Shown: positions 48,636-63,032 of the stretch, piece after piece
How the letters are laid out: the number at the start of each line of letters is the position of its first letter
Numbering within the stretch: the first letter of the stretch is position 1
Assembly: GCA_900016875.1 (NCBI GenBank)
Contig: FCNR01000063.1
Location: 124,001-188,000, forward strand
Length of the DNA: 64,000 nt
Source of the DNA: Eubacteriaceae bacterium CHKCI004
Lineage (GTDB): Bacteria > Bacillota > Clostridia > Lachnospirales > Lachnospiraceae
Direction of reading: 5' to 3'
Notes under the pieces: generated by a model
Database searches by the model: none
What the model was told of the DNA's origin: nothing
What the model saw: only the letters and a program-made list of their open reading frames with translations
Position numbers and translations under genes: made by a program

Positions 48636-48683
48636 AATGTGATTAAATAGTATTGGGGAACATCTTTATAGTAATCAGAATTT

Positions 48684-48727
48684 AGGGAACATTGTTTTAT
48701 GATCAATGTTCCCTTTCTTTTTTTCTT
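48684..48727 (+). terminator. Terminator of lepA
   Basis: Perfect 11-bp stem AGGGAACATTG (48684-48694) with CAATGTTCCCT (48704-48714), then a T-rich tract. The rest of the 300-base gap to the nitroreductase gene is AT-rich and holds only a promoter. Confidence 0.92.
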
Positions 48728-48795
48728 TCTCTCTCGTTTATGTAGATTTCTTCTGTTATTTATTATTTCCTATCGGAAAAAAATAAAAATTCATG

Positions 48796-48826
48796 TTGAC
48801 TCTCCGACAGCAGGATGCCGTATTGT
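48796..48826 (+). promoter_or_regulatory. Candidate promoter with 19-base spacer, before the nitroreductase gene
   Basis: TTGACT, 19 bases, TATTGT. The long spacer is of the kind activated by MerR-family regulators; one such gene lies at the end of this cluster. Confidence 0.4.
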
Positions 48827-48936
48827 TATGTTACAGAAAATCTTTACCGGTGAAAAAACGGAAATCTGTGGGTAAAAGCAAAACAAAAAAATATAAACAT
48901 CTGATACGCAGATGCTGTACGGAAAGGAGGACAAAC

Positions 48937-49452
48937 ATGGATTTTTTGGAATTGGCGAAATCCAGATGGTCTGTGCGCAAGTTTAAGCCGCAGCAGATTA
49001 GCAGCGAGGAGCTTGAGCAGATTCTGCTGGCAGGGAAATACGCGCCTACGGCAGTAAATTACCAGCCGCAGAAGATTTACATTTTAAAAAGTAAAGAGGC
49101 AATGGAAAAAATCAACAGCGTGTGCAAATGTGTGTTTGGCGCGCCAATGGCGATTCTTGTGGCCTATGACAAGGAGAGAGCGTGGAGATGTCCGTTTGAC
49201 GGACATTTGTCCGGCGATGTGGACGTCGGCATCGTGGCGACGCATATGGTCATGAAAGCCTGGGAGATGGGAATCGGCACCTGCTTTGTGGAACATTTTG
49301 ATCCGGAAGATGTGAAAAAAATTTTCAATCTTCCAGAGAATGAGAAGGTGGTATTGTTGCTGCCAATTGGTTATCCTGCCAATGATGCGGAGCCGCTCAT
49401 GAAACTGCATGGAACATTCCGGGAGAAAGAGGATGTGGTAAAAACATTGTAG
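48937..49452 (+). CDS. Nitroreductase-family flavoprotein
   Basis: FMN-dependent reductase fold of 171 residues. The N-terminus has the family pattern SRWSVRKFKPQQIS, followed by LLAGKYAPTAVNYQPQKIYIL for FMN contacts and GDVDVGIVATHMVMKAWEMGIGTC (in parts) for the dimer core. It is a short member. I chose the ATG after AAAGGAGG; the open frame upstream is Lys-rich noise. Its substrate is unknown. It is the first gene of a long run on the plus strand that includes acyl-CoA dehydrogenases and ETF, so a redox role in that pathway is possible. Confidence 0.87.
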   Translation: MDFLELAKSRWSVRKFKPQQISSEELEQILLAGKYAPTAVNYQPQKIYILKSKEAMEKINSVCKCVFGAPMAILVAYDKERAWRCPFDGHLSGDVDVGIVATHMVMKAWEMGIGTCFVEHFDPEDVKKIFNLPENEKVVLLLPIGYPANDAEPLMKLHGTFREKEDVVKTL

Positions 49453-49544
49453 AAATGTTTGGCTGATGCAAAGCGTTTATAGCATATATAAAAAGAACGG
49501 CATTGGCAAAAATGATGTGACATGTATTGAAAGGGGAATATACG

Positions 49545-50687
49545 ATGATGAATTTTGCATTGACAGAAGAACAGAAAAAAATACAGGAAAAAGCAAGAGC
49601 CTTTGCGGAGAGAGAACTGGCTTCCGGCGCGCAGGAAAGAGATCTGTCAGAAGAATTTCCGATGTATTTGATTAAAAAGCTGGGAGAGGAAGGGTTGATC
49701 GGTCTGCAATTTCCAAAAGAATATGGAGGACAGGGGAAAGATTATCTTTCTTTTATTCTGGTGGTAGAAGAACTGTCCAAAGTAGATTCTGCTTTTGGTA
49801 TTGCTTATGCGATATCTTCCACATTTACGACAGGGATTTATTTGTTTGGAAATGATGCGCAGAAAAAACATTGTATGCCTAGATTGTTTAGAGGAGACGC
49901 ATTAGGATGTTTTGCGCTGACTGAGCCGGATGCCGGTTCCGATGCCGGTTCGGCCAAGACGACGGCCGTCCGGGAGGGAGATCATTATATTATAAATGGA
50001 ACAAAATGTTTTATCACCAACAGTGCAGTGGCAGATTATTGTATGCTTATTGTCAATACAGATTTGTCTAAAGGTTCCAAAGGTCTCACAGCGTTTCTGG
50101 TAGATTTGAAGACGACGCCGGGCGTTCGTATTGGACATATTGAAAATAAATGCGGCATCAAATCTGCCAAAGTGGCTGAAGTTATTTTTGAAAATGCGGT
50201 AATTCCGGCGGATCGTATGCTGGGACAGGAAGGGAAAGGATTCCGATATGCCTTGACAGCATTGGATGCGGGGCGTCTCGGTGTGGCAGCGCAGGGACTT
50301 GGTCTGGCACAGGCAGCGTTTGATATTACAAAAGAATATATGAAACAGAGAAAACAATTTGGAAAGCCTATTTGTGCCAACCAATATCCGGCATTTAAGA
50401 TGGCGGATTTGGAGACGGAGATTGATATGGCGCGGCTTTTGTTGTACAAAGGCGTGTGGAAACAACAGGAAGGGATGAATTTCTCCGTGGACGCTTCCAA
50501 GGCGAAGCTGGCCTGTACCAATGTTGCGATGAAAGTGACGACAGAATGTATCCAGAATATGGGCGGCGCAGGTTATATGAGAGAACAAAATGTGGAGCGT
50601 ATGTTCCGTGATGCGAAAATCACGCAGATTTATGAGGGAACCAACGAAATTCAGAGACTGATTATCAGTGGAAATATTTTTAAATAA
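49545..50687 (+). CDS. Acyl-CoA dehydrogenase 1 (short-chain/Bcd type)
   Basis: FAD enzyme that interconverts acyl-CoA and 2-enoyl-CoA. Domain order is the usual helical N-domain, beta middle domain with FALTEPDAGSDAGSA at the FAD site, and helical C-domain. The catalytic base is Glu364 in IYEGTNEIQRL; QNMGGAGYMRE precedes it. 380 residues. Two adjacent ATGs follow AAAGGGGAA; either may be used. In anaerobes such enzymes run as enoyl-CoA reductases with ETF. It is followed by a terminator and then by a lone EtfA FAD domain. Confidence 0.92.
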   Translation: MMNFALTEEQKKIQEKARAFAERELASGAQERDLSEEFPMYLIKKLGEEGLIGLQFPKEYGGQGKDYLSFILVVEELSKVDSAFGIAYAISSTFTTGIYLFGNDAQKKHCMPRLFRGDALGCFALTEPDAGSDAGSAKTTAVREGDHYIINGTKCFITNSAVADYCMLIVNTDLSKGSKGLTAFLVDLKTTPGVRIGHIENKCGIKSAKVAEVIFENAVIPADRMLGQEGKGFRYALTALDAGRLGVAAQGLGLAQAAFDITKEYMKQRKQFGKPICANQYPAFKMADLETEIDMARLLLYKGVWKQQEGMNFSVDASKAKLACTNVAMKVTTECIQNMGGAGYMREQNVERMFRDAKITQIYEGTNEIQRLIISGNIFK

Positions 50688-50734
50688 GAGTCTTAACGAC
50701 AGAAAGCATGTATGATAAGTAAAATGTGAAAAAG

Positions 50735-50787
50735 AGAGGCTGCCAATTCTTCCCGATGAGCAGGAAGAGTTTGCGCCTCTTTTTTCT
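50735..50787 (+). terminator. Terminator after acyl-CoA dehydrogenase 1
   Basis: AGAGGC (50735-50740) with GCCTCT (50775-50780) and an inner 8-bp stem, then six Ts. The T-run can itself pair with GAAGAAAAAAG at 50800-50810, an 11-bp alternative hairpin that could weaken termination. Confidence 0.75.
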
Positions 50788-50851
50788 TCCTGAAAAATAG
50801 AAGAAAAAAGCTCTGATAATGAACAGGCAGAATAAAGGGAGGCTGAAAAAG

Positions 50852-51394
50852 ATGAATAATATGAAAAAAATAGCAGAGAAAGAATTGTACGCTGTCAAAA
50901 CAGAAAATGGAATCTGGAGAGAGGAATTATGTTTGAAAAAGGCTGTGCATATGCTGCTTTTGTATCTGAAGACGATAGAGATTCCGGCGGAAAAAGAGAT
51001 TATCGTGGCAGGTGGGAGGGGAATAAAAGAAAAGAAAGACTTCAGAACTCTCCAGTCGCTGGCGGATGTGTTAGGAGGTACTATGGGTGTTTCACGTCCT
51101 TTGGTTGATGAGGGATGGTTTCCCAGAGAATTGCAGATTGGAATAAATGGAAAGAGAGTGGAACCGGGACTGTATGTGGCTGTCGGAATATCCGGCGCTT
51201 TTCAGCATATGGCTGCGGTAAAAGAGGCGGATTATATCATTGTGATGAATACAGACAGGAATGCTCCTTTTTTTGAGAGGGCGGATTTCGGGATTGTGGG
51301 AGATTACAAAAAAATTCTCCCATTTTTACTGTGGGAGATGGAAAAGAAGACTCCACGCACTGGAGGGTTTTTGGAATATATAAAGAAAAAATAA
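50852..51394 (+). CDS. Free-standing C-terminal FAD domain of ETF alpha
   Basis: A 180-residue protein that aligns only with the C-terminal FAD-binding domain of EtfA. It shows AGGRGIKEKKDF (GRG loop), GVSRPLVDEGWFP (SRxxVDxGW), QIGINGKRVEPGLYVAVGISGAFQH and NTDRNAPFFERADFGIVGD, in the same order as in the complete EtfA at 53.5 kb. The N-terminal alpha/beta domain of about 190 residues is absent; only a 50-residue lead segment comes first. The usual T of QTGKT is N here, and the G after QH is replaced by Ala, so FAD contacts may differ. AAAGGGAGG lies 9 bases before ATG, so it is a designed small gene, not a frameshift remnant. Role unknown. Confidence 0.85.
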   Translation: MNNMKKIAEKELYAVKTENGIWREELCLKKAVHMLLLYLKTIEIPAEKEIIVAGGRGIKEKKDFRTLQSLADVLGGTMGVSRPLVDEGWFPRELQIGINGKRVEPGLYVAVGISGAFQHMAAVKEADYIIVMNTDRNAPFFERADFGIVGDYKKILPFLLWEMEKKTPRTGGFLEYIKKK

Positions 51395-51416
51395 ACAAAA
51401 AAAGAGAAAAATCACA

Positions 51417-51447
51417 TTGACTATCTCGGCACTGTATCCAATAGGAT
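51417..51447 (+). promoter_or_regulatory. Candidate promoter with 19-base spacer, before acyl-CoA dehydrogenase 2
   Basis: TTGACT, 19 bases, TAGGAT; the -10 end holds the dyad TATCC-AATA-GGATA (51435-51448). Same -35 and spacer as before the nitroreductase gene. Confidence 0.4.
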
Positions 51448-51529
51448 AAAGACAAGTAAAGATAAAATAAAAAAATATATACAAATTTTTGTTTTGTTTG
51501 AACTGAATCTTGCAGAAAGGAAGAAACAC

Positions 51530-52672
51530 ATGGATTTTTCATTGACAAAGAAACAGGAAATGCTGAAAAAGCTTTCGGAACAGTTTGCGGTAAATGAACT
51601 GGAACCTGTGGCAGCAGAGGTGGATGAAAGTCATACATTTCCGGAAGAAAACTTTAAAAAGATGGCAGAGCTTGGCTTTACAGGTATTGGAGTGTCAAGA
51701 CAGTACGGTGGTTCGGAGGGAGGCACGCTGGAAAAGGTGATTGCCGTTTCAGAGTTTGCAAAAGTGTGTATGTCTTCAGCGGCAATTCTCTCCATTCATC
51801 TGATCGCGCCGCAGGCAATTAGCAGATATGGAACAGAGGAGCAAAAAAAGAAATATTTGCCTAGACTGACCAGAGGCGGAGAATTGGGGGCTTTCGCACT
51901 GACAGAGCCGGATGCCGGTTCCGATGCCGGTTCGGCCAGAACCACAGCGATTTTCGACAGAGAAACAAATGAGTATGTATTGAACGGAACCAAATGTTTT
52001 ATTTCTGGCGGAAGCCGGGCGGGCGTAGTCATCGTATTTGCGCTCACCGATCCGTCCAAAGGAACAAGAGGAATGTCTGCCATCATAGTAGAAAAAGGAA
52101 CGCCAGGTTTTACCGTGGGGAAAGTGGAAAATAAAATGGGGCTTGGAGGTTCCGAAACCGCAGAGCTGATTTTTGAGGACTGCCGCGTGCCGGCGGCAAA
52201 TTTTCTGGGAAAAGAAGGACAGGGATTTAAGATTGCCATGCAGGCGCTGGACGGCGCAAGAATCGGTGTGGGAGCCCAGGCTATGGGCGTGGCCGAAGCA
52301 GCCGTAGACCTATCTGTTAAATACGCGAATGAGAGGGTACAATTTGGAAAGCCGATTGCTGCTTTGCAGGGAATCCAATGGTATATCGCAGATATGGCAA
52401 CCAAAACGGAGGCAGCTAAGGCCCTTGTATATCATGCGGCTTATCTGGCGGACAGTGGGCAGCCGTTTACCAAAATGGCGGCGATGTGTAAATTAAACGC
52501 GTCTGAAAATGCCCGGTTTGTAACGAACCTTGCATTACAGATACATGGAGGATATGGATACATGAAAGAATATCCTTTGGAAAGAATGTACAGGGATGCG
52601 AAGATTACGGAGATTTATGAAGGAACCTCAGAAATCCATAAAGTAGTCATAGCAAGGGAGGTAATGAGATAA
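51530..52672 (+). CDS. Acyl-CoA dehydrogenase 2 (Bcd type, paired with EtfBA)
   Basis: FAD enzyme of 380 residues, exactly as long as dehydrogenase 1 and with its catalytic Glu364 at the same position (IYEGTSEIHKV). FALTEPDAGSDAGSA marks the FAD site and LQIHGGYGYMKEYPLERMYRDAKI (in parts) the C-domain. It lies 2 bases before etfB, so this is the gene whose product most likely forms a complex with EtfBA, as in butyryl-CoA, acryloyl-CoA or isocaprenoyl-CoA reductases of Clostridia. Acyl chain preference cannot be read from the sequence. Confidence 0.93.
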   Translation: MDFSLTKKQEMLKKLSEQFAVNELEPVAAEVDESHTFPEENFKKMAELGFTGIGVSRQYGGSEGGTLEKVIAVSEFAKVCMSSAAILSIHLIAPQAISRYGTEEQKKKYLPRLTRGGELGAFALTEPDAGSDAGSARTTAIFDRETNEYVLNGTKCFISGGSRAGVVIVFALTDPSKGTRGMSAIIVEKGTPGFTVGKVENKMGLGGSETAELIFEDCRVPAANFLGKEGQGFKIAMQALDGARIGVGAQAMGVAEAAVDLSVKYANERVQFGKPIAALQGIQWYIADMATKTEAAKALVYHAAYLADSGQPFTKMAAMCKLNASENARFVTNLALQIHGGYGYMKEYPLERMYRDAKITEIYEGTSEIHKVVIAREVMR

Positions 52673-52674
52673 CG

Positions 52675-53478
52675 ATGAGAATATATGTATGTGTAAAACA
52701 GGTTCCGGATACATCGGGGAAAGTGGCAGTCAATCCGGACGGAACCCTCAACCGGGCTTCCATGGAGACAATTACCAATCCTGATGATTTGATGGCTATG
52801 GAACAGGCGTTATTGATAAAAGACAAGAATGATTGTCAGGTCACTGTAGTGACAATGGGGCCTCCGCAGGCCGAAGGAATGCTTCGGGAGCTTTTGGCAA
52901 TGGGAGCAGATGATGCTGTTTTAATTTCCAGCAGAGAATTTGGCGGTTCAGATACATTTGCCACCTCACAGATCATTGCAGGAGCGATTCAACATTTGGG
53001 ACTTGAAAAAGAAGATATCATTTTTTGCGGAAGGCAGGCCATTGATGGAGATACCGCACAGGTAGGGCCTCAGATCGCTGAGAAATTAGATATTCCACAG
53101 ATTACTTATGCGGCGGATATTGAAAAAGAGGGAGACTGTGTGACAGTGAAACGGATGCTGGAAGACGGATATATGAAGATTAAGACCAGCACGCCATGTC
53201 TGATCACCTGTATAAAAGAGCAGGAGAGCGGATCAAGGTATATGACATTAAATGGAATCAACGACTGCTATGAAAAACCGCTGCAGATTCTTGACTATGA
53301 AGCGTTAAAGGATGAACCCCTCATTGAGACAGATACCATAGGATTGAAAGGGTCTCCGACGAATATTTTTAAATCATTTACTCCGCCGTTAAAGGGGGCG
53401 GGCGTTATGCTCACAGGAACAGACAGAGAGATGGCTGCATCGTTGGCGAAAGCGCTCGATGAAAAGCATATGTTATAG
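52675..53478 (+). CDS. etfB: Electron transfer flavoprotein, beta subunit (bifurcating type)
   Basis: Small ETF subunit; 267 residues. The nucleotide-binding region reads GRQAIDGDTAQVGPQIAEKL. The DGDTAQVGP form of this motif is, from literature I recall, characteristic of electron-bifurcating ETFs, which hold FAD here in place of AMP. CVKQVPDTS at the start is also typical. Such an ETF oxidises NADH, sends one electron to the acyl-CoA dehydrogenase and the other to ferredoxin. It is coupled to dehydrogenase 2 upstream and etfA downstream. Confidence 0.95.
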   Translation: MRIYVCVKQVPDTSGKVAVNPDGTLNRASMETITNPDDLMAMEQALLIKDKNDCQVTVVTMGPPQAEGMLRELLAMGADDAVLISSREFGGSDTFATSQIIAGAIQHLGLEKEDIIFCGRQAIDGDTAQVGPQIAEKLDIPQITYAADIEKEGDCVTVKRMLEDGYMKIKTSTPCLITCIKEQESGSRYMTLNGINDCYEKPLQILDYEALKDEPLIETDTIGLKGSPTNIFKSFTPPLKGAGVMLTGTDREMAASLAKALDEKHML

Positions 53479-53495
53479 AAGAGGGGGAAAAGCAC

Positions 53496-54602
53496 ATGGG
53501 ATTTGATAGTGCAAAGATTGAAGAGTTCCGAAATATCTGGGTATTTTGCGAGCAAAGAGATGGAAAACTGATGGAGACGGACTTTGAACTGATATCCGAA
53601 GGCAGAAAACTGGCTGATGAGAGAGGAGCGGAGCTGATCGGTGTTCTTCTGGGGGATCAGGTGGAAGGATTGGCGGGAGAGATTGGAGGATATGGAGCGG
53701 ATAAAGTGATTGTCTGTGATCATCCGATGCTCAAAGTATATACCACGGATGCCTATGCAAAAGTATTGTGCGATGCGGCCATGGAGTATAAACCAGAAAT
53801 TATTCTTATAGGAGCTTCTAATATTGGACGGGATCTGGGACCAAGATGTGCGGCGAGATTACATACAGGATTAACTGCGGACTGCACACACCTTGATATT
53901 GATATGAATGAATATGTTAATTTCTTGACAACATCCTCCACACTGGATATGGACAAGACAAAATTTAAAATGGATGATGTGAATCTTAAAATGACCAGAC
54001 CAGCCTTTGGCGGACACCTCATGGCAACAATCATCTGTCCCAGATTCCGTCCATGTATGTCGACGGTTCGGCCGGGCGTGCTGAAGAAAGCGGAATATTC
54101 CAGAGAAAAAGCAGAGAAAGTACAGGTGGAAATGTATCCGGTTCATTTGAATGCAAAGGATATACATACACAGGTAATAGAAGTAATAAAAGAAGCAAAA
54201 CAAATGGTAGATTTAATCGGCGCTGATATTGTAGTTTCTGTGGGAAGAGGTATCAGTAAAGATGTGGAAAAAGGAAAAGAACTGGCGACACAACTGGCCG
54301 GGGCATTGGGAGGCGGTGTCGTGGGAGGTTCCAGAGCGGTGATTGACGCGGGATGGCTTACCGCAGATCATCAGGTAGGGCAGACGGGAAAAACAGTACA
54401 TCCCAAAATATATGTAGCGCTTGGCATTTCCGGAGCTATCCAGCACAAAGCAGGTATGCAGGATTCCGATTTGATCATCGCTGTCAATAAGGACGAGAAG
54501 GCGCCGATTTTTGACTGCGCTGACTATGGACTTGTCGGAGATCTGTTTAAAATAGTGCCAATGATGGTGGAAGAGATTACGGAAATGAAAGATAAAAAAT
54601 AA
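53496..54602 (+). CDS. etfA: Electron transfer flavoprotein, alpha subunit
   Basis: Large ETF subunit; 368 residues with both domains. The N-terminal domain shows LTADCTHLDID and RPAFGGHLMATI, then MSTVRPGVL. The C-terminal FAD domain has VGRGISKDVEKG, GSRAVIDAGWL, HQVGQTGKTVHPK, GISGAIQHKAGM and NKDEKAPIFDCADYGLVGD. This complete copy gives the reference against which the lone FAD domain at 50.9 kb is clearly partial. 17 bases after etfB. Confidence 0.96.
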   Translation: MGFDSAKIEEFRNIWVFCEQRDGKLMETDFELISEGRKLADERGAELIGVLLGDQVEGLAGEIGGYGADKVIVCDHPMLKVYTTDAYAKVLCDAAMEYKPEIILIGASNIGRDLGPRCAARLHTGLTADCTHLDIDMNEYVNFLTTSSTLDMDKTKFKMDDVNLKMTRPAFGGHLMATIICPRFRPCMSTVRPGVLKKAEYSREKAEKVQVEMYPVHLNAKDIHTQVIEVIKEAKQMVDLIGADIVVSVGRGISKDVEKGKELATQLAGALGGGVVGGSRAVIDAGWLTADHQVGQTGKTVHPKIYVALGISGAIQHKAGMQDSDLIIAVNKDEKAPIFDCADYGLVGDLFKIVPMMVEEITEMKDKK

Positions 54603-54647
54603 ATAAAGGAAGGCTTTTAAACATGTAAAACAGAGAGGAGAAATTGT

Positions 54648-56006
54648 ATGAACAAAAGCTTAAACGCCAATGGCGATTTAAAATTACCCGCCCTTCTGGG
54701 GCTTGGAGGAGCATTGTTTTCCATGCATTTCGGCGCATCCAGCATGGTTTGGCCGATGAACTGGGGAAAAGAGAGCGGAAGTTCTTATTTGATCGCTTTC
54801 GCGGGAGCATTTATCACATCCCTGCTGCTGGTACTGTTTGCCTACATCGCCATGTCCAGGGGAAATGGAACGTACAGCAAGATTACTGTCAAAGCCATTG
54901 GGAAAAAATTCGGTGTCATTTACAGTTGTATCACTATCATTGTATTGGGGCCGTTATATGCCATCCCTCGTATGAGTGCGGCAGCCTGGGATTCTATTGT
55001 ACAGGCCTTCGGCCTGAACCCGGATAACCGGATTTTGCTCATTATCTTTACCGTAGCGTTTTATCTGGTAACCTACTGGTTTTTAATGAATCCGGGAAAA
55101 GCCATGGACAGAATATCCAGCATTCTGTTTCCGGTTTTGATCATCATCGTTATCATTGTGGTCGGAAAAGGAATGATTACGCCAATCGCGGATCCGGTGC
55201 CAAAAAGTTACGATACGTCAGCATTCGCCTATGGATTTACCAATGGATATGCAACGGCAGAGATTCTCTGTGCGCTGGTCTTTGGTACGGTTATCATCAA
55301 CAGTCTCAAGGAGAAGGGCGTCTCCGATACGCATATGAATAAAAATATTATCCGCGTCGGAATCGTGGGCCTGGCAATCCTGACCTGTACGCATTTTTGC
55401 CATATGTGGATCGGCGCGCATACCGGAGGAACGATTGACCTTACTTACACGGCCTTATATACAGAAGTTGCCATAGAGCTTCTCGGAAAGATCGGAGGCG
55501 TGTTCTTCTGCCTGGCGTTGTTCTTTGCGGCGCTGACCACAGCCATCGGAATGGCGTCCGGCTGTGCGGAGTTCTTCATTGATACGATGGAAACGGACAA
55601 GTTTACTTATAAGCAGGTGTCCCTGGCTATCTTGATTCTCAGTACGATCTTCGGATGTCTGGGACTGACCTCTCTTCTTGATATACTGGGACCGATTCTG
55701 GATGGTATTTATCCGGCGGCCATCGTTTTAGTACTTTATTACACATTTGTGCCGAAATGTAATGAGGCGAGAGGACTTAACATGTGTAAATGGGGAATGA
55801 CCGCAGCACTTATTATGGGAATTGTGGATACGATTTACACGTATGGCGCCCGTTTCCACGTTGACCTCGGTATTTATAATACGATTTACGAAGCACTCCC
55901 GTTATCATCCGACAAGCTGGCATGGGTTCCGTTTGCGATTGTAGCTTGCGTGATTGGGTATGTGGTATACAGAGAAAAAGATAAAGGAGGAGTTACAAAT
56001 GAATGA
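54648..56006 (+). CDS. brnQ: BrnQ-type branched-chain amino acid carrier (LIVCS family)
   Basis: Na+/H+-coupled amino acid transporter with about twelve helices over 452 residues. Family features are FSMHFGASSMVWPMNWGKESG near the N-terminus, IIVLGPLYAIPRMSAAAWD, MNPGKAMDRISSILFPVLI and GYATAEILCALVFGTVIINSLKEKGV. Typical substrates are Leu, Ile and Val. It is embedded between ETF and CoA-transferase genes and overlaps the next gene by 8 bases, so its cargo is likely the substrate of this pathway, perhaps a branched or beta amino acid. Confidence 0.85.
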   Translation: MNKSLNANGDLKLPALLGLGGALFSMHFGASSMVWPMNWGKESGSSYLIAFAGAFITSLLLVLFAYIAMSRGNGTYSKITVKAIGKKFGVIYSCITIIVLGPLYAIPRMSAAAWDSIVQAFGLNPDNRILLIIFTVAFYLVTYWFLMNPGKAMDRISSILFPVLIIIVIIVVGKGMITPIADPVPKSYDTSAFAYGFTNGYATAEILCALVFGTVIINSLKEKGVSDTHMNKNIIRVGIVGLAILTCTHFCHMWIGAHTGGTIDLTYTALYTEVAIELLGKIGGVFFCLALFFAALTTAIGMASGCAEFFIDTMETDKFTYKQVSLAILILSTIFGCLGLTSLLDILGPILDGIYPAAIVLVLYYTFVPKCNEARGLNMCKWGMTAALIMGIVDTIYTYGARFHVDLGIYNTIYEALPLSSDKLAWVPFAIVACVIGYVVYREKDKGGVTNE

Positions 56007-57618
56007 GCAGACAGCAACGCTTCGCTATCGGATGTCGGACCGTGATGTGTTCTACGGCGGTGGAGTTGTCAACGGAGCCAGAAGTATTACACTGATGGAA
56101 GATACGGCAAAACGGCTGATGGCAAAAGTATATGGGAACAGCAGCCGGGTGGTGGAAGTAAAGAAGGTTCGTCTTTATGTACCTTGCTTTGCTGGTGATT
56201 ACATGGAGTATATTGCCCGTATTAAAAAGGAAGAAAAAGAAAGAGTGTTGATTGAAGTTCGCTCTTATAAGATTATTGATGTGCCGGAAAATCCGCCATA
56301 TCCAAGCTCCATCGATGTATTGGAAGATCCGCCATTATCCACGGTCGTACAATTTTGGTTTGAGCGTCCGGCGAAAGAGAAGGAAGAAAAAGGCGTTGGC
56401 GATGGCAAGATGCAGGAAGAAAAGCGCCCGGCCAGGAAAAGAAAACCTCTGGAAGGATTAAAGGTTGTGGATTTGACTTCTGCGTTAAATGGTCCATTTT
56501 GTACCATGATTCTGGCAGATTACGGTGCAGAAGTGCTGAAGATCGAACCGGTAGGAGGAGAACAGTGCCGTACCTGGGGGCCTCTCGATGAAAAGAGCGG
56601 TGAGAGTGGTTTTTATAACTATGTGAACAGAAATAAGAAAGGAGCCACTCTGAACCTGAAATCAGAAAAAGGATTACAGATGTTCTACGACCTGGTAAAA
56701 GACGCAGATATTCTTGTGGAAAATTATAAGGGCGGCGTTACAAAGAAGCTGAAAATTGATTATGAGACCATCCGCAAAATTAATCCGGGTATCATCTATG
56801 CTTCCGGTTCCGGTTTTGGTCAAAACAGTCCGATTTCTTATCGGCCATGCTATGACATTGTGGCGCAGGCCATGGGCGGTATGATCAATCTCACAGGTTT
56901 TAAGGATACGGATCCGGTAAAAGTAGGACCATCGGTGGCTGATCATGTAGCTGGTATCTATCTGGCAGTCGGCACGCTCTTAGCTCTCTATCACAAAGAA
57001 AAAACAGGAGAAGGACAGCTTGTTGACGTATCCATGTTTGATACTATTTTCAGTCTGTTGGAAAATGCCATTGTTAACTATACAGTAGGTGGATTTATAC
57101 CTGAGAGAAATGGAAACGTGGATCCGTCCATTGCTCCGTTTGATGTATATAAATGCAAAGATGGTTTTACCGCTCTTGGCGTAGGTAATGATCGTCTGTT
57201 TGAGAAATTCTGCCGCACGATTGGGCATGAAGAACTTCTCGACGACCCGAGATATGAAACTAATGACCTCAGATGTCAGAATTATATTCCGGATTTGCAG
57301 AATCTGATTCGTGACTGGTGTAAAGATTACACGAAAAAAGAACTTGAGGACATTATGGATAAAGCAGGAATCCCTTGCGGACCTGTATTAAATGTAAAGG
57401 AGGCGATTGAGCACCCGCACATTCAGGCAAGAGAGATGATGGTGCATGTGAATCATCCGACAGCAGGTGACCAGTATTTTCAGGGATGTGTCATGAAACT
57501 CTCAGAGACACCGGGAACTGTGGAGACACCGTCACCACTCTTGGGACAGCACAATTGTGAAATCTTTGGAATTACAAAGGAAGAAGAAGCGAAACTCAAA
57601 GAAGAAGGAGTTCTGTAA
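55999..57618 (+). CDS. Hot-dog domain fused to a class III (CaiB/BaiF) CoA-transferase
   Basis: A 539-residue fusion. Residues 1-122 are a hot-dog domain with MSDRDVFYGGGVVNGARSIT and CFAGDYMEYIARIKK, related to beta-aminoacyl-CoA ammonia-lyases and about five-sixths identical to the separate protein at 58.3 kb. A charged linker rich in Lys and Glu follows (about 123-152). Residues 155-539 are a family III CoA-transferase starting LEGLKVVDLTSALNGPFCTMILADYGAEV (in parts); the catalytic aspartate should be Asp315 in GPSVADHVAG. The ATG is 8 bases after AAAGGAGG. The fusion suggests direct hand-over of the new acyl-CoA to the hot-dog partner. The single frame has no break. Confidence 0.88.
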   Translation: MNEQTATLRYRMSDRDVFYGGGVVNGARSITLMEDTAKRLMAKVYGNSSRVVEVKKVRLYVPCFAGDYMEYIARIKKEEKERVLIEVRSYKIIDVPENPPYPSSIDVLEDPPLSTVVQFWFERPAKEKEEKGVGDGKMQEEKRPARKRKPLEGLKVVDLTSALNGPFCTMILADYGAEVLKIEPVGGEQCRTWGPLDEKSGESGFYNYVNRNKKGATLNLKSEKGLQMFYDLVKDADILVENYKGGVTKKLKIDYETIRKINPGIIYASGSGFGQNSPISYRPCYDIVAQAMGGMINLTGFKDTDPVKVGPSVADHVAGIYLAVGTLLALYHKEKTGEGQLVDVSMFDTIFSLLENAIVNYTVGGFIPERNGNVDPSIAPFDVYKCKDGFTALGVGNDRLFEKFCRTIGHEELLDDPRYETNDLRCQNYIPDLQNLIRDWCKDYTKKELEDIMDKAGIPCGPVLNVKEAIEHPHIQAREMMVHVNHPTAGDQYFQGCVMKLSETPGTVETPSPLLGQHNCEIFGITKEEEAKLKEEGVL

Positions 57619-57677
57619 CAATTTTCTTGGCAAAAAAGGCGGATGGAACCGCCAAAATAATAAAGGAGGACAATACG

Positions 57678-58142
57678 ATGAGAAAGGTATCCTATTTAAG
57701 TTACAACATGACCACAGCAGACGCAAATAACCCGGATGGACTGGTCCCAATCGGACGACAGTTTGACTTTATCGGCGACGTGGAAACAGAACAGATGATT
57801 TTAAATGATGGCGATGAATCTCTCTGTCTCGGCTATCACGATGTAAAAGTATATCAGGACGTATATGTGGGCGATATGATGGAATACAAAGCAACACTGA
57901 CCCATGTGGGAAATACATCCAGAGACTGCCGCATTGAAGTCTATAAGCTGGCAACACCTGCTTTCCGTACCGGAAAAGAGAACTGCAAACCGGGAGATAT
58001 GGTTTGGTTTGACGAGCCGGTACTCTGCACAGAAGGAAATGTGCGTCTGGTTGTTAAGAAACATCTTCAGAGAGGTGCGCAGCCGGATGGTATCGTAAAG
58101 GATCCATGGAGAGCGCTGGATGATTTTCCGGAAGATGAGTAA
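57678..58142 (+). CDS. Hot-dog protein related to beta-aminoacyl-CoA ammonia-lyase, variant lacking the YGG motif
   Basis: A 154-residue hot-dog protein. DGDESLCLGYHDVK and VYVGDMMEYKATLTHVGNTSRDCRIEVYKLAT (in parts) resemble, from memory, the beta-alanyl-CoA ammonia-lyase of Anaerotignum (Clostridium) propionicum. The N-terminal HY.GN.VNGAR stretch of that enzyme is not kept; here it reads ANNPDGLVPIGRQF. This subunit may therefore be structural or need the YGG-type partner next door. AAAGGAGG is 8 bases before ATG. Confidence 0.8.
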   Translation: MRKVSYLSYNMTTADANNPDGLVPIGRQFDFIGDVETEQMILNDGDESLCLGYHDVKVYQDVYVGDMMEYKATLTHVGNTSRDCRIEVYKLATPAFRTGKENCKPGDMVWFDEPVLCTEGNVRLVVKKHLQRGAQPDGIVKDPWRALDDFPEDE

Positions 58143-58151
58143 GATTTTTTC

Positions 58152-58171
58152 ATAAATAAAATTTTATTTAT
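58152..58171. repeat. Perfect 20-bp AT palindrome between the two hot-dog genes
   Basis: ATAAATAAAATTTTATTTAT, without a loop, in an AT-rich gap of 131 bases. It could be a weak hairpin or a protein site. Confidence 0.4.
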
Positions 58172-58273
58172 TACATAGCATCTGTAAAATTATAATCAAA
58201 GAAATCATAATCAGAAGTAAGTTTATTTTGGAAAGCAGTCGAATAAAAAATTATAAAAGAGGAGGAAAAAGGT

Positions 58274-58645
58274 ATGTATGATACAGTAACTTTTCGTTAC
58301 AGAATGTCCGACCGTGATGTATTTTATGGCGGCGGCGTGGTAAACGGAGCAAGAAGCATCACATTGATGGGAGATACCGCCAACAGATTAATGGCGAAAA
58401 CCTTTGGGAATACAGGTCATTGTGTGGAAGTAAAAAAGGTTCGTCTCTATGTTCCGTGTTTTGCCGGTGACTACATGGAGTACATCGCAAGAATCAAAAA
58501 AGTAGAAGGTAAAAAAGTACTGATTGAGGTGCGTTCCTTCAAGATCATTGAAGTTCCGGAGAATCCGCCGTACCCAAGTTCCATTGATGTACTGGAAGAT
58601 CCGCCGCTGTCCACAGTAGTGCAGTTTGTATACGAGACATATTAA
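58274..58645 (+). CDS. Hot-dog protein related to beta-aminoacyl-CoA ammonia-lyase (YGG type)
   Basis: A 123-residue single hot-dog domain, very close to residues 1-122 of the fusion protein at 56.0 kb. RMSDRDVFYGGGVVNGARS matches the catalytic N-terminal pattern of Kal/Acl-type lyases, which remove ammonia from 3-aminoacyl-CoA; CFAGDYMEYIARIKK is the CoA-site region. It lacks the C-terminal extension of the protein upstream. Strong AGAGGAGG ribosome site. Could be the free subunit that pairs with the YGG-less protein; a hydratase function is the alternative. Confidence 0.82.
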   Translation: MYDTVTFRYRMSDRDVFYGGGVVNGARSITLMGDTANRLMAKTFGNTGHCVEVKKVRLYVPCFAGDYMEYIARIKKVEGKKVLIEVRSFKIIEVPENPPYPSSIDVLEDPPLSTVVQFVYETY

Positions 58646-58660
58646 TATAATGAAATGACA

Positions 58661-58700
58661 TGGAGCTGCAGACAAAGGAGTCACTTGTTTTGCGGCTCCA
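58661..58700. repeat. Inverted repeat between hot-dog and MoxR genes
   Basis: TGGAGC (58661-58666) with GCTCCA (58695-58700) and partial inner pairing. Only a weak T-rich tail follows, so it is at best a leaky terminator. Confidence 0.4.
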
Positions 58701-58756
58701 GCTTTATTATAAGACAAAGAATACAGAAAATGAAACAAACAGAGAAAGGATCTACT

Positions 58757-59578
58757 ATGGAGAACTTTAGTGGAACCAGTGAGTATATCGCATCAGAGGG
58801 ATTATCCCGAACCGTTGATATTGCATTGGCGTTGAAAAAGCCTTTGCTTATCAAAGGAGAACCGGGGACAGGAAAGACCATGCTGGCGGATGCTGTAAGT
58901 AAAGCGATGGGAAAAAAATTAATTATCTGGAATATTAAATCGACCACAAAGGCACAGGACGGACTGTACATATATGACACGGTACAGCGCCTTTATGACA
59001 GTCAGTTTGGAGAAAACGATGTGAAAGATATTGGCCGTTATATCAAATATGGAAAATTGGGAGAATCATTTTTAAGCAGTGAACGGGTGGTGCTTCTCAT
59101 TGATGAGATTGATAAGGCAGATATTGAGTTTCCCAATGATTTGCTCTGGGAACTTGACAAAATGGAATTTTTTGTGAATGAGACTAAAACACAAATTAGG
59201 GCAAAACATCGCCCGGTCGTCATCATCACCTCCAATGCGGAAAAAGAGCTGCCGGATGCTTTCTTGCGACGCTGCATTTTTTACTATATTGATTTTCCGG
59301 ATAAAAAAATGATGGAAGAAATCGTGCGGGTACATTGTGGAAATGTAGATGAATTTTTGCTGCATCAGGCTCTGGACACATTTTATCATTTGCGGGAGGT
59401 CAAGGACATACAAAAGAAACCGGCAACTTCTGAATTGATTGACTGGATCAGAGCACTGCAGATTGGCGGTATCCGCCCCAAAGAGCTGGATGATGCAATC
59501 CCGTATTCCGGACTGCTGCTGAAGAAAGAAGAAGATTTTCGTTTCATACAGAAGAAGGGGAATTATGGTCTTTTCTGA
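58757..59578 (+). CDS. MoxR-family AAA+ ATPase (CoxD-like)
   Basis: A 273-residue AAA+ ATPase. Walker A is GEPGTGKT at residues 34-41, Walker B is VVLLIDEIDKAD, sensor 1 is in VVIITSNAEKELPDAFLRRC with the arginine finger, and a small helical lid follows. MoxR ATPases act with VWA proteins to insert metals or cofactors or to remodel enzyme complexes. Here the partner follows with a 14-base overlap. ATG after GAAAGGA. The client is probably an enzyme of this cluster, but this is inference. Confidence 0.9.
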   Translation: MENFSGTSEYIASEGLSRTVDIALALKKPLLIKGEPGTGKTMLADAVSKAMGKKLIIWNIKSTTKAQDGLYIYDTVQRLYDSQFGENDVKDIGRYIKYGKLGESFLSSERVVLLIDEIDKADIEFPNDLLWELDKMEFFVNETKTQIRAKHRPVVIITSNAEKELPDAFLRRCIFYYIDFPDKKMMEEIVRVHCGNVDEFLLHQALDTFYHLREVKDIQKKPATSELIDWIRALQIGGIRPKELDDAIPYSGLLLKKEEDFRFIQKKGNYGLF

Positions 59579-60773
59579 TTATTTTTATTATTTAAGAGAA
59601 AACGGATTATCTGTTTCCATGGAAGAATGGCTTCTTTTGATGGAAGCTTTAAAAAAAGATCTGGCAAGGTCTAATCTGCTTGAATTTTATTATCTGAGTC
59701 GTGCTGTACTTGTGAAAAAGGAGTCGGATTATGATTCTTATAACCAGCTTTTTTATCAATACTTTGAAGGAGCTCTGACAGAAAATTCTGTTGATAAAAA
59801 ATTGCCGGAAAAGCTGATGAAATATCTGGAAAAACCCATTGAGCAGCTTGCCTATGATAAAGATGAGGTGGATGAACGCACGGATCTGGAGTATGAAAAA
59901 TTGGAGCAGATGTTCCTTGAGAGGATGAAAGAACAAAACGATATGCACAACGGTGGAAAAAAATGGCTGGGAACCGGAGGGACTTCTCCTTATGGAAATA
60001 CTGGTTACAGCAGGCGGGGAATCCGTATCGGCGGTCACGAGGGCAATCAAAATGCCTACAGGGTGATTACGGAGTCCGCCTATCGGGATTTCAGGGAGGA
60101 TGCCACCATCGGAATCCGCCAGTTTGAGGTTGCTCTCCGCCGCCTGCGGCAATATTCCGGCAAAATAGGAGAAGAGACAGAACTGGATGTGGATGCCACC
60201 ATCGACGCCACCTGTCAAAATGGCGGAAGCTTAAAAATAAAATATCGCCGTCCGAGAAAAAATGCGGTAAAGCTTCTGGTCCTTTTTGATTCCGGAGGTT
60301 CCATGTCGCCTTACGCTTCCCTTTGCAGCGGCCTTTTTCAGGCAGTCAATGCGGCAAATCATTTTCAGTCGCTGAAAATCTATTATTTCCACAACTGCCC
60401 TTATAACCGCCTCTATCAGACGCCGGAATGTATCTTCCAGAAAAGTGAAGACACGGATCGGGTGCTTGCCAATCTGGACAAGAGTTATAAAGCATTGTTT
60501 GTGGGAGATGCTTCTATGGCGGCCTGGGAGCTTCGATATTTCAGTGGAGGGCGGGACGGAAAAGTAACAGATACCGTATCAGGTCTTAAATGGCTGCATA
60601 AAATTATTGTTCGCTGCGGGGGAGCGGTGTGGCTGAATCCCATAGCGGAAGAACATTGGGGCAGTGGAAGAGGGGCGGTAACCATCGAACGTATCAGCTC
60701 GGAGCTTCCGATGTATCATCTGTCGGTGCAGGGACTCACGAAGGCTGTCCGAAGGCTGCTGGGAAATCAATAA
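59565..60773 (+). CDS. VWA-domain protein, CoxE-like partner of the MoxR ATPase
   Basis: A 402-residue protein with a helical N-terminal half and a von Willebrand A domain at about residues 235-400. The metal site is LLVLFDSGGSMSPY (Asp242), the D-x-G-x-S form usual in CoxE-like members. A Gly-rich stretch with GGKKWLGTGGTSPYGNTGYSRRG links the halves. CoxD/CoxE pairs mature CO dehydrogenase in other bacteria; this locus has no molybdenum enzyme, so another client is likely. Confidence 0.88.
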   Translation: MVFSDYFYYLRENGLSVSMEEWLLLMEALKKDLARSNLLEFYYLSRAVLVKKESDYDSYNQLFYQYFEGALTENSVDKKLPEKLMKYLEKPIEQLAYDKDEVDERTDLEYEKLEQMFLERMKEQNDMHNGGKKWLGTGGTSPYGNTGYSRRGIRIGGHEGNQNAYRVITESAYRDFREDATIGIRQFEVALRRLRQYSGKIGEETELDVDATIDATCQNGGSLKIKYRRPRKNAVKLLVLFDSGGSMSPYASLCSGLFQAVNAANHFQSLKIYYFHNCPYNRLYQTPECIFQKSEDTDRVLANLDKSYKALFVGDASMAAWELRYFSGGRDGKVTDTVSGLKWLHKIIVRCGGAVWLNPIAEEHWGSGRGAVTIERISSELPMYHLSVQGLTKAVRRLLGNQ

Positions 60774-60834
60774 CAATTTTATAAGGATTGAAAATGATAA
60801 CGACGGCTATCAATATGGCCGGTGGGAGGAAAAA

Positions 60835-61794
60835 GTGGGATTAACAGAAAATAAAGCAGGAAGAGGGATTGTTCTGGCATTGCTGGGCGGCTGTTCATGG
60901 GGAATTTCTGCTACTTGCGGACAGTATATTTTTGCAAACAGTATGATTGATCCCGGATCACTGGCTTCCATTCGTCTTCTCTGCAGTGGAATGGCGCTGC
61001 TGTTTTTGTGCCTGTTCCGGGACAGGTACAGATTGACTGCTATATGGAAAGAAAGAAATGACAGAGTCCGCTTGTTGCTTTACGCATTGGGCGGATTGGT
61101 ATTTATCCAGTATTCTTATCTGACAGCCATAAAATATACAAATTCCGGAACGGCAACGGTACTTCAATATACGGGAATTATTTTGATCATGTTTCTTTCT
61201 TGCCTGAAAGAGAGAAGAAGACCGGTGGGTAGAGAGATACTGGCAGTTATTTTCGCACTGGCTGGTATCTTTCTGCTTGCTACAGGAGGAAATCCATTTC
61301 ATATGTTTATTTCTTCCGAAGGCCTTTTCTGGGGACTGTTGGCGGCAGTCGCATTGGCGTCCTATACGCTTATTCCGGGAAATCTGATTCAAAAGTGGGG
61401 AAATCTTGTGGTAAATGGTTTCGGTATGACTTTTGGGGGATTGTTTCTCTTTGTATTGTTTGCGGTCTGGAAAGAGGATATGGCGTATGACTGGACTGTA
61501 TGGCTGGCAGTTTTTGGTATTGTTTTTGTGGGAACGCTGCTGGCAACCTGTCTTTATTCGCAGGGAGTAATAGAAGCAGGTCCGGTGAGAGCCAGTCTGG
61601 CAGCATCTGTGGAGCCGCTGGTGGCGGCAATTTCCTCGGCTTTATGGATGAAAACAGTTTTTGGAGTGGTGGAGGTGGTCGGTTTTCTTGTCATTATGTC
61701 CGGAGTGTTGCTGGTTTCGATGCCGGGTATATCTGAAAACAAGCGGATAAAACAGAGGGAGGAAAATAACAATAAAAATATAGATAGTATATAA
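60835..61794 (+). CDS. EamA/DMT-family membrane transporter
   Basis: Ten helices in two EamA repeats, 319 residues. GLLGGCSWGISATCGQYIF-like start (ALLGGCSWGISATCGQYIF), YSYLTAIKYTNSGTATVLQYTG and LYSQGVIEAGPVRASLAASVEPLVAAISS (in parts) are characteristic. GTG start with GGGAGGA 4 bases ahead. It could export the product or a by-product of the pathway encoded upstream, or bring in a precursor; the substrate is unknown. Confidence 0.86.
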   Translation: MGLTENKAGRGIVLALLGGCSWGISATCGQYIFANSMIDPGSLASIRLLCSGMALLFLCLFRDRYRLTAIWKERNDRVRLLLYALGGLVFIQYSYLTAIKYTNSGTATVLQYTGIILIMFLSCLKERRRPVGREILAVIFALAGIFLLATGGNPFHMFISSEGLFWGLLAAVALASYTLIPGNLIQKWGNLVVNGFGMTFGGLFLFVLFAVWKEDMAYDWTVWLAVFGIVFVGTLLATCLYSQGVIEAGPVRASLAASVEPLVAAISSALWMKTVFGVVEVVGFLVIMSGVLLVSMPGISENKRIKQREENNNKNIDSI

Positions 61795-61808
61795 TAAAAC
61801 AATGCATT

Positions 61809-61837
61809 TTGCCATAGACTCTGGTTTGTGATAAAAT
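61809..61837 (+). promoter_or_regulatory. Promoter of the MerR-family gene
   Basis: TTGCCA, 17 bases, TAAAAT. Downstream, in the untranslated leader, ACTAT-N7-ATAGT (61862-61878) is a possible operator. Confidence 0.5.
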
Positions 61838-61985
61838 AGTCAATATATACCGGAGGATATAACTATATAAAAAATAGTAGTGTAGGAAAAGAAATCAGAA
61901 TGGATATTTGAACTTGGACGAACATGAGAAAATGCATACGGAAAATCAAAGGATACGGTGTGACAGAGGAAGGTGACGAATCAAG

Positions 61986-62879
61986 ATGGAGAGAAAGTAT
62001 TCAATTGGAGAAGTGTCAAAAATATGCTCTATCCCAATCAAAACTCTGCGGTATTACGATGAAATTGGATTGATGGTACCAGAGTTTCGGAATCAAGAGA
62101 GTCGGTACCGTTATTACAGCAAACGGCAGATGGTGAATCTTTTTATTATCCGTCAGCTCAGAACATTAGGGTTTTCATTGAAAAATATAAAGGAACTGTT
62201 TTCCGACCTGCATCTGAAAGATTTTGGAGAGAAGATTAATGAGCGACTGGAAGAAATTGATGAGGAGATTAAGGAAATGGAGAGAAAAAAGACTGCAGCT
62301 CTCTATTTGCGTGACCGTATTGTGAAGGGCGGAGAGATTCTCGCCCATAGTGATGAAGATTTTGATAGTGCAAAGGGAGATTCGCTTGGACTCATTAATG
62401 TGGAATATATTGTAAAGGGAACTTTGTATTACCGAAGAAGTATTATGAAAAAATATCAAAATGAGGAAGTGTCTTTGGAACGATGGATTGACATTACAGA
62501 AAATTGTCAGAAAAACCATCTTTCTGTAGTCAGTCCCATTATCGTAACTTACTATGACAACGCTCTGGAACAATTTCTTTGTAAAGATTGCGATGTGGAA
62601 TTTGGCGTGTTGGTAGAAAGAAATGAAAAGAATGATCAAAATCAGGGGAATGTCCAGATTCGTCCTTTTGGAGGTTTTGAGGCAGTGACAAAGGTCCATG
62701 TTGGCAGCTATCGGAATATTATGTTGAGCCATGTACGTATGGTACAGTGGATCAATCAGAATGATTATGAGATAGTCGGCCCGATTTCAGAAGAGTTTAT
62801 TGTTTCCCCGATAGATATCGACAATGAGGATGAACATATTACAAAAATCATTATCCCGATTAAAAAGAAAAAAGTATGA
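61986..62879 (+). CDS. MerR-family regulator with C-terminal effector-binding domain
   Basis: Transcription activator of 297 residues. The winged helix takes residues 1-72 (YSIGEVSKICSIPIKTLRYYDEIGLM and RYRYYSKRQMVNL). A coiled coil follows at about 75-115, and the C-terminal 180 residues look like a GyrI/BmrR-type ligand-binding domain. No metal-binding cysteine pair is seen, so it should sense an organic molecule. It closes the cluster and may act on the two 19-base-spacer promoters upstream. Confidence 0.88.
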   Translation: MERKYSIGEVSKICSIPIKTLRYYDEIGLMVPEFRNQESRYRYYSKRQMVNLFIIRQLRTLGFSLKNIKELFSDLHLKDFGEKINERLEEIDEEIKEMERKKTAALYLRDRIVKGGEILAHSDEDFDSAKGDSLGLINVEYIVKGTLYYRRSIMKKYQNEEVSLERWIDITENCQKNHLSVVSPIIVTYYDNALEQFLCKDCDVEFGVLVERNEKNDQNQGNVQIRPFGGFEAVTKVHVGSYRNIMLSHVRMVQWINQNDYEIVGPISEEFIVSPIDIDNEDEHITKIIIPIKKKKV

Positions 62880-62883
62880 AAAT

Positions 62884-62962
62884 ACCGCACCAAAAGAGAG
62901 GATTTGGAATATCCGGTGAAAACGATTTATTCCGAAATGTATCTCATTGGTGCGGTTTTTTT
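62884..62962 (+). terminator. Terminator of the MerR-family gene
   Basis: ACCGCACCAA (62884-62893) pairs with TTGGTGCGGT (62947-62956), followed by a run of Ts; the loop is long (53 bases). Confidence 0.75.
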
Positions 62963-63032
62963 GTGACTGCCGGACTCTGACGCTTAAAATATCTGTGCCA
63001 GAGAATTTTTTTATTTTGGCCTTATATGGAGT

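Follow-up and report, generated by a model that had tools for sequence, protein, structure and literature searches.

The stretch of DNA analysed here (the window) comprises 64,000 nucleotides from Eubacteriaceae bacterium CHKCI004 (contig FCNR01000063.1, positions 124,001 to 188,000), and between positions 48937 and 62879 it carries 14 intact plus-strand open reading frames (ORFs) that appear to encode a reductive fermentation of a beta-amino acid via coenzyme A (CoA) esters. A preliminary description, made from the sequence alone, had named gene types that are all present as intact plus-strand ORFs at the coordinates it gave, although it counted thirteen of them instead of 14. The features of the locus, with scores against the family models that matched, are the following.

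48638..63046, no strand: the whole island, inserted between lepA and the next gene; absent from genomes G305 and G327
48937..49452, plus: nitroreductase-family flavoprotein, the island's first gene; like BluB and malonic semialdehyde reductase in NCBIfam, under cut-off
49545..50687, plus: ACD1, a second short-chain acyl-CoA dehydrogenase; AcrC score 429, below the cut-off of 640
50819..51394, plus: C-terminal FAD domain of EtfA lacking the N-terminal domain; Pfam ETF_alpha, residues 58-135
51530..52672, plus: ACD2, an AcrC-type acryloyl-CoA reductase; NCBIfam NF042972, 674.9 bits, above the cut-off of 640
52675..53478, plus: EtfB of the AcrB type; NCBIfam NF042971, 508, above the cut-off of 475
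53496..54602, plus: EtfA of the AcrA type; NCBIfam NF042970, 687, above the cut-off of 600
54648..56006, plus: BrnQ-family carrier, a proposed beta-amino-acid importer; Pfam Branch_AA_trans; livcs 232, below the cut-off of 243
55999..57618, plus: HD1-CaiB fusion, an HD3-type hot-dog domain (KAL-like N-terminus) joined to a class III CoA-transferase, the proposed beta-alanine CoA-transferase; CoA_transf_3, 434 bits
57678..58142, plus: HD2, a hot-dog subunit; A2 profile against the beta-alanyl-CoA:ammonia lyase (Acl) structure 4mtu, E = 1.2e-22; residue columns below
58274..58645, plus: HD3, a hot-dog subunit; A1 profile against 4mtu, E = 1.3e-12; residue columns below
58751..59578, plus: MoxR-type AAA ATPase, putative accessory protein; AAA_5
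59565..60773, plus: CoxE-type VWA protein, putative accessory protein; VWA_CoxE
60835..61794, plus: EamA transporter, possibly unrelated; Pfam EamA
61986..62879, plus: MerR regulator with a GyrI-like effector domain; Pfam

For the reductase genes the family assignment was tested: ACD2, EtfB and EtfA all score above the equivalog cut-offs that NCBIfam sets for AcrC, AcrB and AcrA, and the AcrC cut-off is also passed by four of the five ACD2-type proteins scanned from other clusters. The best solved relatives of EtfA are the corresponding subunits of the caffeyl-CoA reductase complex (CarE) and of the acyl-CoA dehydrogenase/electron-transferring flavoprotein (ETF) complex 5ol2. The ETFs of both complexes bifurcate electrons. 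As a statement about function, however, the earlier label of a bifurcating-type ETF is not borne out: both subunits belong with AcrA and AcrB, and the Acr-Etf of Anaerotignum (Clostridium) propionicum is reported as non-bifurcating in the accessible part of PMC9205015. A. propionicum has three identical acr copies (PMC4832176). For Anaerotignum neopropionicum, the accessible part of PMC9205015 describes a single complete acrC-acrB-acrA cluster along with a further two dehydrogenases that are 46 and 54% identical to acrC. In the A. neopropionicum cluster related to that of the window (L042), ACD2 is 80% identical to the window's and the nearest of the three dehydrogenases found in that genome (the others reach 51% and 46%); judging from these matching identities, not from a locus tag, the published acr genes are probably those of this cluster.

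The deamination step would fall to the hot-dog proteins. What had been taken for three equivalent ammonia-lyase domains are in fact two non-equivalent types: HD1 and HD3 are 84% identical, whereas HD2 shares only 27% with HD3, and this over residues 7-79 only. By sequence the best solved relative of HD2 and of HD3 is 4mtu, whose hot-dog fold they share. Acl is a homomeric enzyme. Its conserved positions were compared, in 4mtu numbering, between 43 HD2 and 46 HD3 sequences and 14 Acl or Kal proteins (six Acl, six Kal and two identical Peptoniphilus proteins), using 39 columns, namely the 38 that are invariant in the 14 plus Asn/Asp25. Ten columns are kept by HD2 alone (T38, E39, D45, D47, L50, Y54, G79, S82, Q129 and R130) and five by HD3 alone (Y19, G21, N25, G26 and P62), the conservation of Tyr19, Gly21 and Asn25 in HD3 being partly built in by the search patterns; both types keep six, and the remaining 18 are mixed or lost. 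Of the five residues kept only by HD3, four precede the central helix, and most of those kept only by HD2 are within that helix or follow it. Neither chain thus holds all positions of the homomeric lyases, which are divided between the two. On this alignment HD2 and HD3 have complementary losses, and the pattern is the one expected if one of two composite sites had been lost. Because the conserved positions are split, the lyase is classed as working like Acl rather than as Acl, and we infer a heteromeric enzyme with a split active site.

A model of the naturally fused HD2-HD3 protein from L038 is compatible with this arrangement. AlphaFold returned a mean predicted local distance difference test (pLDDT) score of 82.5 and a predicted template modelling score of 0.83 from 56 alignment rows, to which unfused HD2 and HD3 rows had been added; a model built from eight fused proteins alone reached a pLDDT of 57 and was discarded. 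The nine best matches in the PDB are the tandem hot-dogs of ACOT12 and ACOT7, aligned over the whole length with template modelling (TM) scores of 0.65-0.67 by query at a root-mean-square deviation (rmsd) of 8-11 Å, and 4mtu follows at rank 27 (36% identity, TM 0.79 by target length, rmsd 6.1 Å). ACOT7 has a single composite site formed from two unequal halves. It could be argued that HD2 and HD3 hydrate the enoyl-CoA or cleave its thioester, as hydratases or thioesterases, given that they share the fold of acyl-CoA thioesterases. The nearest solved sequence, however, is that of an ammonia lyase, and with a hydratase there would be no step to account for the amine of a beta-amino acid derived from pyrimidines, which makes this very unlikely.

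Unequal hot-dog pairs are also found beyond the HD2/HD3 families. In Chakrabartyella piscis (L084:8953-11217) a further Acl-like pair of 192 and 129 amino acids is followed by a CaiB transferase, with MerR nearby, and is perhaps another heteromeric lyase for a different substrate. Two adjacent hot-dogs of Clostridium tetanomorphum (L083:9393-10296), one without Glu39 and the other without Asn25, resemble the HD2/HD3 split.

The same gene set recurs elsewhere. When the 84,980 species genomes of the genome_contigs collection were scanned with the HD3 alignment, 40 loci were found; the scan relies on two peptide patterns, RYRMSDRD and FY[GK]GGVVN, and misses distant relatives. Three of the loci (L055, L063 and L064) belong to genomes of the family sample described below (G175, G088 and G071), and the HD3 of L040 was found by the scan, yet not called as a separate ORF. 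HD2 is present in 38 of the 40 (not in L034, nor in L048, which lies at a contig edge), as is CaiB (not in L048 or L059); ACD2 at 59% identity or more is found in 35 (L034, L045, L047, L048 and L066 are left out), EtfB and EtfA each in 34, MerR in 31 (leaving out a 32% match in L045) and BrnQ in nine (leaving out a 28% match in L067). HD2 and HD3 form one ORF in 13/40 loci, a distribution that requires no fewer than two changes on the HD2 tree, and four Lachnoanaerobaculum-type loci (L058 and L061-L063) have HD3 joined to CaiB, as the window does in the form of HD1. Since the core recurs in 40 other loci, it travels as a unit and is not a chance assembly. The preliminary description had named the independence of the hot-dog, CoA-transferase and ETF genes in conserved neighbourhoods as its refutation; they are linked. 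These neighbourhoods support its proposal of a module for reductive beta-amino-acid fermentation in which CoA is transferred, the amino group removed and the enoyl-CoA reduced, as happens in A. propionicum.

The transferase domain of the HD1-CaiB fusion spans the full CoA_transf_3 profile (1-366 of 366), as expected of a class III CaiB/BaiF domain. In A. neopropionicum, Anaerotignum sp. MB30-C6 and Chakrabartyella (L078, L080 and L082) one Acl homologue each, 81-96% identical to 4mtu, adjoins a CaiB gene (48-49% identical to the window's) and a MerR gene (41-42%). The hot-dog, CaiB and MerR trio of the window therefore mirrors an Acl locus, and the CaiB protein beside Acl would be the beta-alanine CoA-transferase Act.

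A different precedent for the hot-dog proteins would be the deamination of 3-aminobutyryl-CoA by Kal, followed by Bcd, in lysine fermentation. The KAL models are indeed the best NCBIfam matches of HD2, HD3 and the hot-dog part of the fusion. The scores, however, are 53-70 against the NF052388 cut-off of 160, compared with 196 for the Kal of L020 and 119 for an Acl homologue 96% identical to 4mtu. The neighbours of the L020 Kal, namely Kce, Kdd, lysine 5,6-aminomutase and lysine 2,3-aminomutase, pass their own cut-offs, and the Kce of L020 as query matched nothing in the window's own genome at E 0.001, in a search that had no positive control. With a reductase of the AcrC type in addition, a Kal-like role is extremely improbable.

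A link to reductive pyrimidine degradation had been overlooked. PreA is encoded in 32/40 of the cluster-bearing genomes (the query came from one of them). Of the 299 genomes in a family sample, 19 have a PreA-like match at E 1e-100; such a match is present in all three cluster-bearing genomes besides the window's (one of them the query's own) vs 16/295 of the others (Fisher p = 2e-4). In A. neopropionicum (L042) and in L036 a cytosine/uracil-type permease gene lies between those for dihydropyrimidinase and carbamoylase. A membrane protein with DUF1097 (the ycdZ family; Pfam) is encoded near pyrimidine/beta-amino-acid clusters at L065:7641-8159 and L047:11561-12109, and the accessible part of PMC11036815 places a DUF1097 protein beside preT of Anaerostipes hadrus; it is a candidate transport or sensing partner.

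The window's genome itself does not combine PreA with dihydropyrimidinase, the mark of a pyrimidine-degradation cluster. Orthologues of neither were found in it: the PreA query gave a 28% and a partial 34% match and the dihydropyrimidinase query a 30% match, taken as PyrD/PyrC-level. The BrnQ-type carrier had been read as a clue to a branched or beta amino acid, but the branched reading gains no support: carriers of the family adjoin the cluster mainly where PreA is absent, in six of the eight PreA-less genomes vs 3/32 with PreA (Fisher p = 5e-4, an optimistic value as related genomes are counted singly and some are incomplete). Because the window's genome lacks PreA and dihydropyrimidinase, the carrier probably imports the substrate in this organism, a role suggested by gene content. 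A branched-chain or other beta-amino acid, for which the adjacent carrier speaks, is a highly improbable substrate: the carrier falls slightly short of the livcs cut-off, and BrnQ relatives with 63-68% identity also occur in clusters with PreA and dihydropyrimidinase (L029) or with dihydropyrimidinase and carbamoylase (L047). Taken together, the AcrCBA match, the kinship to 4mtu, the linkage of the core and the co-occurrence with PreA make beta-alanine or 3-aminoisobutyrate the most likely substrate, not a branched alpha-amino acid.

It is less easy to choose between these two compounds. The lyase pair might act mainly on 3-aminoisobutyryl-CoA derived from thymine, leading from 3-aminoisobutyrate via methacrylyl-CoA to isobutyryl-CoA and isobutyrate as end product. 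The pyrimidine gene neighbourhoods agree with this, as do the separate Acl-CaiB locus of A. neopropionicum, the loss of His18 from both subunits, and the second dehydrogenase ACD1, which occurs in 4/40 loci, with a 78% identical copy adjoining HD2 in the same-genus genome G308 and 70% identical homologues in Eubacterium barkeri and Eubacterium aggregans. In Peptoniphilus, L047 combines HD2/HD3 with two Acl-like genes (57% identical to 4mtu) in a single cluster, as though two substrates were served. On the other hand the linked reductase is of the AcrC type, and in A. neopropionicum the cluster ACD2 is the nearest dehydrogenase, in keeping with the single complete acr cluster in the accessible part of PMC9205015, so that 3-aminoisobutyrate as the main substrate seems unlikely. 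As the three genomes with an Acl-CaiB-MerR locus hold both systems, a division of labour is possible in which Acl serves beta-alanine and HD2/HD3 serve 3-aminoisobutyrate, and the HD2/HD3 pair may act on another substrate than Acl. In Peptoniphilus stercorisuis (L047:8459-9363) the two Acl-like genes are adjacent, encode identical proteins from different DNA, and lie beside HD2/HD3, dihydropyrimidinase and carbamoylase; its genome has no PreA match.

The favoured interpretation is a beta-amino-acid reduction cycle that converts beta-alanine to propionate by means of a heteromeric hot-dog lyase, to which we assign a probability of about two in three. In this cycle the BrnQ-type carrier would import beta-alanine and the class III CoA-transferase would shift CoA to it from propionyl-CoA. 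HD2 together with an HD3-type partner, either HD3 or the HD1 tethered to the transferase, would then deaminate beta-alanyl-CoA at one composite site per pair, and the resulting acryloyl-CoA would be reduced with NADH to propionyl-CoA by ACD2-EtfB-EtfA. The net reaction would be beta-alanine + NADH + H+ -> propionate + NH4+ + NAD+, so that the cycle would act as a sink for electrons and recycle its CoA. Tethering of HD1 to CaiB would shield the reactive acryloyl-CoA, and ACD1 may take a second enoyl-CoA, for example methacrylyl-CoA. In most of the relatives found, reductive pyrimidine degradation would feed the module, whereas in the window's organism, where that pathway is absent, the substrate would be taken up.

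Several observations weigh against this interpretation, besides the partly built-in conservation of HD3 and the large deviations between the fused model and its structural relatives. His18, invariant in the 14 Acl/Kal proteins, is gone from HD2 and HD3 alike. Two scores from other clusters fall short: C. tetanomorphum ACD2 reaches 570 where AcrC requires 640, and the An11-type EtfA reaches 430 where AcrA requires 600. EtfB is absent from 6/40 loci, among them L045 and L047 with about 20 kb in view, and eight of the 40 cluster-bearing genomes lack PreA. Two of the five Acl copies with surroundings examined in Anaerotignum and Chakrabartyella (L079 and L081) have neither CaiB nor MerR alongside, and A. 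neopropionicum holds Acl copies (96% and 89%) in addition to its HD2/HD3 cluster.

The wider proposal, for which the odds appear roughly even, is that the loci represent an apparently undescribed fermentative end of pyrimidine breakdown, widespread in Clostridia, which takes uracil (perhaps also thymine) via beta-alanine (and 3-aminoisobutyrate) to propionate (and isobutyrate). It would use a heteromeric lyase with one site per pair, tethered to the CoA-transferase in some strains, and the window would show a derived form, its pyrimidine pathway having given way to a carrier.

The genomic setting bears on the origin of the window's version. An insertion of about 14.4 kb separates lepA from the next gene in the window, because G305 and G327 have only short gaps there: in G305, of the same genus, matches to the window end at 48637 and restart at 63047 with 134 unaligned bp between them, and in G327 the gap at the same place is 690 bp. 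HD2 has a match in three of the 24 genus genomes, the window's own counted. At the same site Eubacterium sp. An11 (G306) holds a different, pyrimidine-type version, with HD2, HD3, CaiB and ACD2 67-72% identical and MerR, PreT, PreA and dihydropyrimidinase downstream; G308 has a pyrimidine-type cluster at another site. The guanine-plus-cytosine content of the island is 43.8%, vs 47.8% upstream in the window and 46.9% in the 19 kb downstream. In the CaiB tree the window groups with rows from Anaerotignum and Clostridium, L037 being the most similar at 85% identity, and a starred branch (95/100) separates a 29-row set including the window from An11 and G308, the exact place of the window within the set being weakly supported. 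Horizontal acquisition of the island would be the natural reading. No inverted repeats of at least 25 bases were found in 48600-63100, and no clear operon boundary emerged (38 promoter-like elements vs 29 expected, 20 terminator-like elements vs 12 expected).

The remaining genes are less regular companions of the core. Distant relatives of the nitroreductase (26-29%) occur in 9/40 related loci, a 23% match in L034 being left out, and EamA has no match across the 40. The MoxR and CoxE-type VWA genes (58751-60773) directly follow the lyase genes; a chaperone pair is a guess at their role. VWA also follows the fused HD2-HD3 in four loci from metagenome-assembled genomes (L038, L041, L043 and L044), there without a MoxR match. 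The preliminary description had set the fused transferase, the MoxR/VWA pair and the EtfA half outside known pathways; the fusion, in the four loci above, and VWA, in 5/40 (with MoxR in 1/40, L034, 67%), do recur elsewhere, but the EtfA half remains unexplained. It is an intact ORF (50819-51394) between two acyl-CoA dehydrogenases and may be a remnant or a real small protein. Among 46 matches in 24 genus genomes no other free-standing EtfA half was found, and the two other frames below 190 amino acids sit at contig ends.

If correct, the proposal shows how anaerobic Clostridia could turn nucleobases into propionate and puts the Anaerotignum acryloyl-CoA reductase in one cluster with pyrimidine-degrading genes. 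It also offers a testable case of an enzyme with two identical active sites giving rise, via complementary loss, to one with a single split site. According to the accessible part of PMC11036815, fluoropyrimidine breakdown in A. hadrus stops at alpha-fluoro-beta-ureidopropionate; strains with a carbamoylase and the module could take it further. In the literature searched, which left most subscription journals and supplements outside, nothing was found that joins pyrimidine degradation to acryloyl-CoA reduction. The Acl structure paper reportedly describes beta-alanine fermentation for one organism only.

Each step has a known relative. The closest system is the beta-alanine fermentation of A. 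propionicum (Act, Acl and AcrCBA), which shares CoA transfer, hot-dog deamination and Acr reduction, and the Acl loci of the three relatives share the class III transferase and MerR. The window differs from A. propionicum in that its predicted lyase consists of two complementary subunits instead of one, with one partner fused to the transferase, and in that the genes form one cluster including a BrnQ-type carrier. Reductive pyrimidine degradation (Pyd: PreA/PydA, PydB and PydC) is akin through the co-occurrence of PreA with the module, although the window's genome lacks PreA and PydB. For this pathway the accessible part of PMC7332683 names PydD/PydE and MSDH as cluster extensions, and its reference list cites a route from uracil to acetyl-CoA in Bacillus; words starting with 'CoA' or 'propion' are absent from the paper's text. 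The Kal of lysine fermentation belongs to the same hot-dog lyase family, but the match is far under the cut-off and no lysine genes lie alongside. The tandem thioesterases ACOT7 and ACOT12 have the double hot-dog architecture modelled for the natural HD2-HD3 fusion, but are hydrolases with 13-14% identity. The BvaB beta-valinyl-CoA ammonia lyases likewise carry out CoA-dependent deamination of a beta-amino acid, but are kin of enoyl-CoA hydratases and, in the accessible part of the report, without remarkable similarity to the C. propionicum lyases (PMC4619459). As far as the literature searched shows, the features that appear to be new are the heteromeric lyase and the fact that it is repeatedly joined to reductive pyrimidine degradation.

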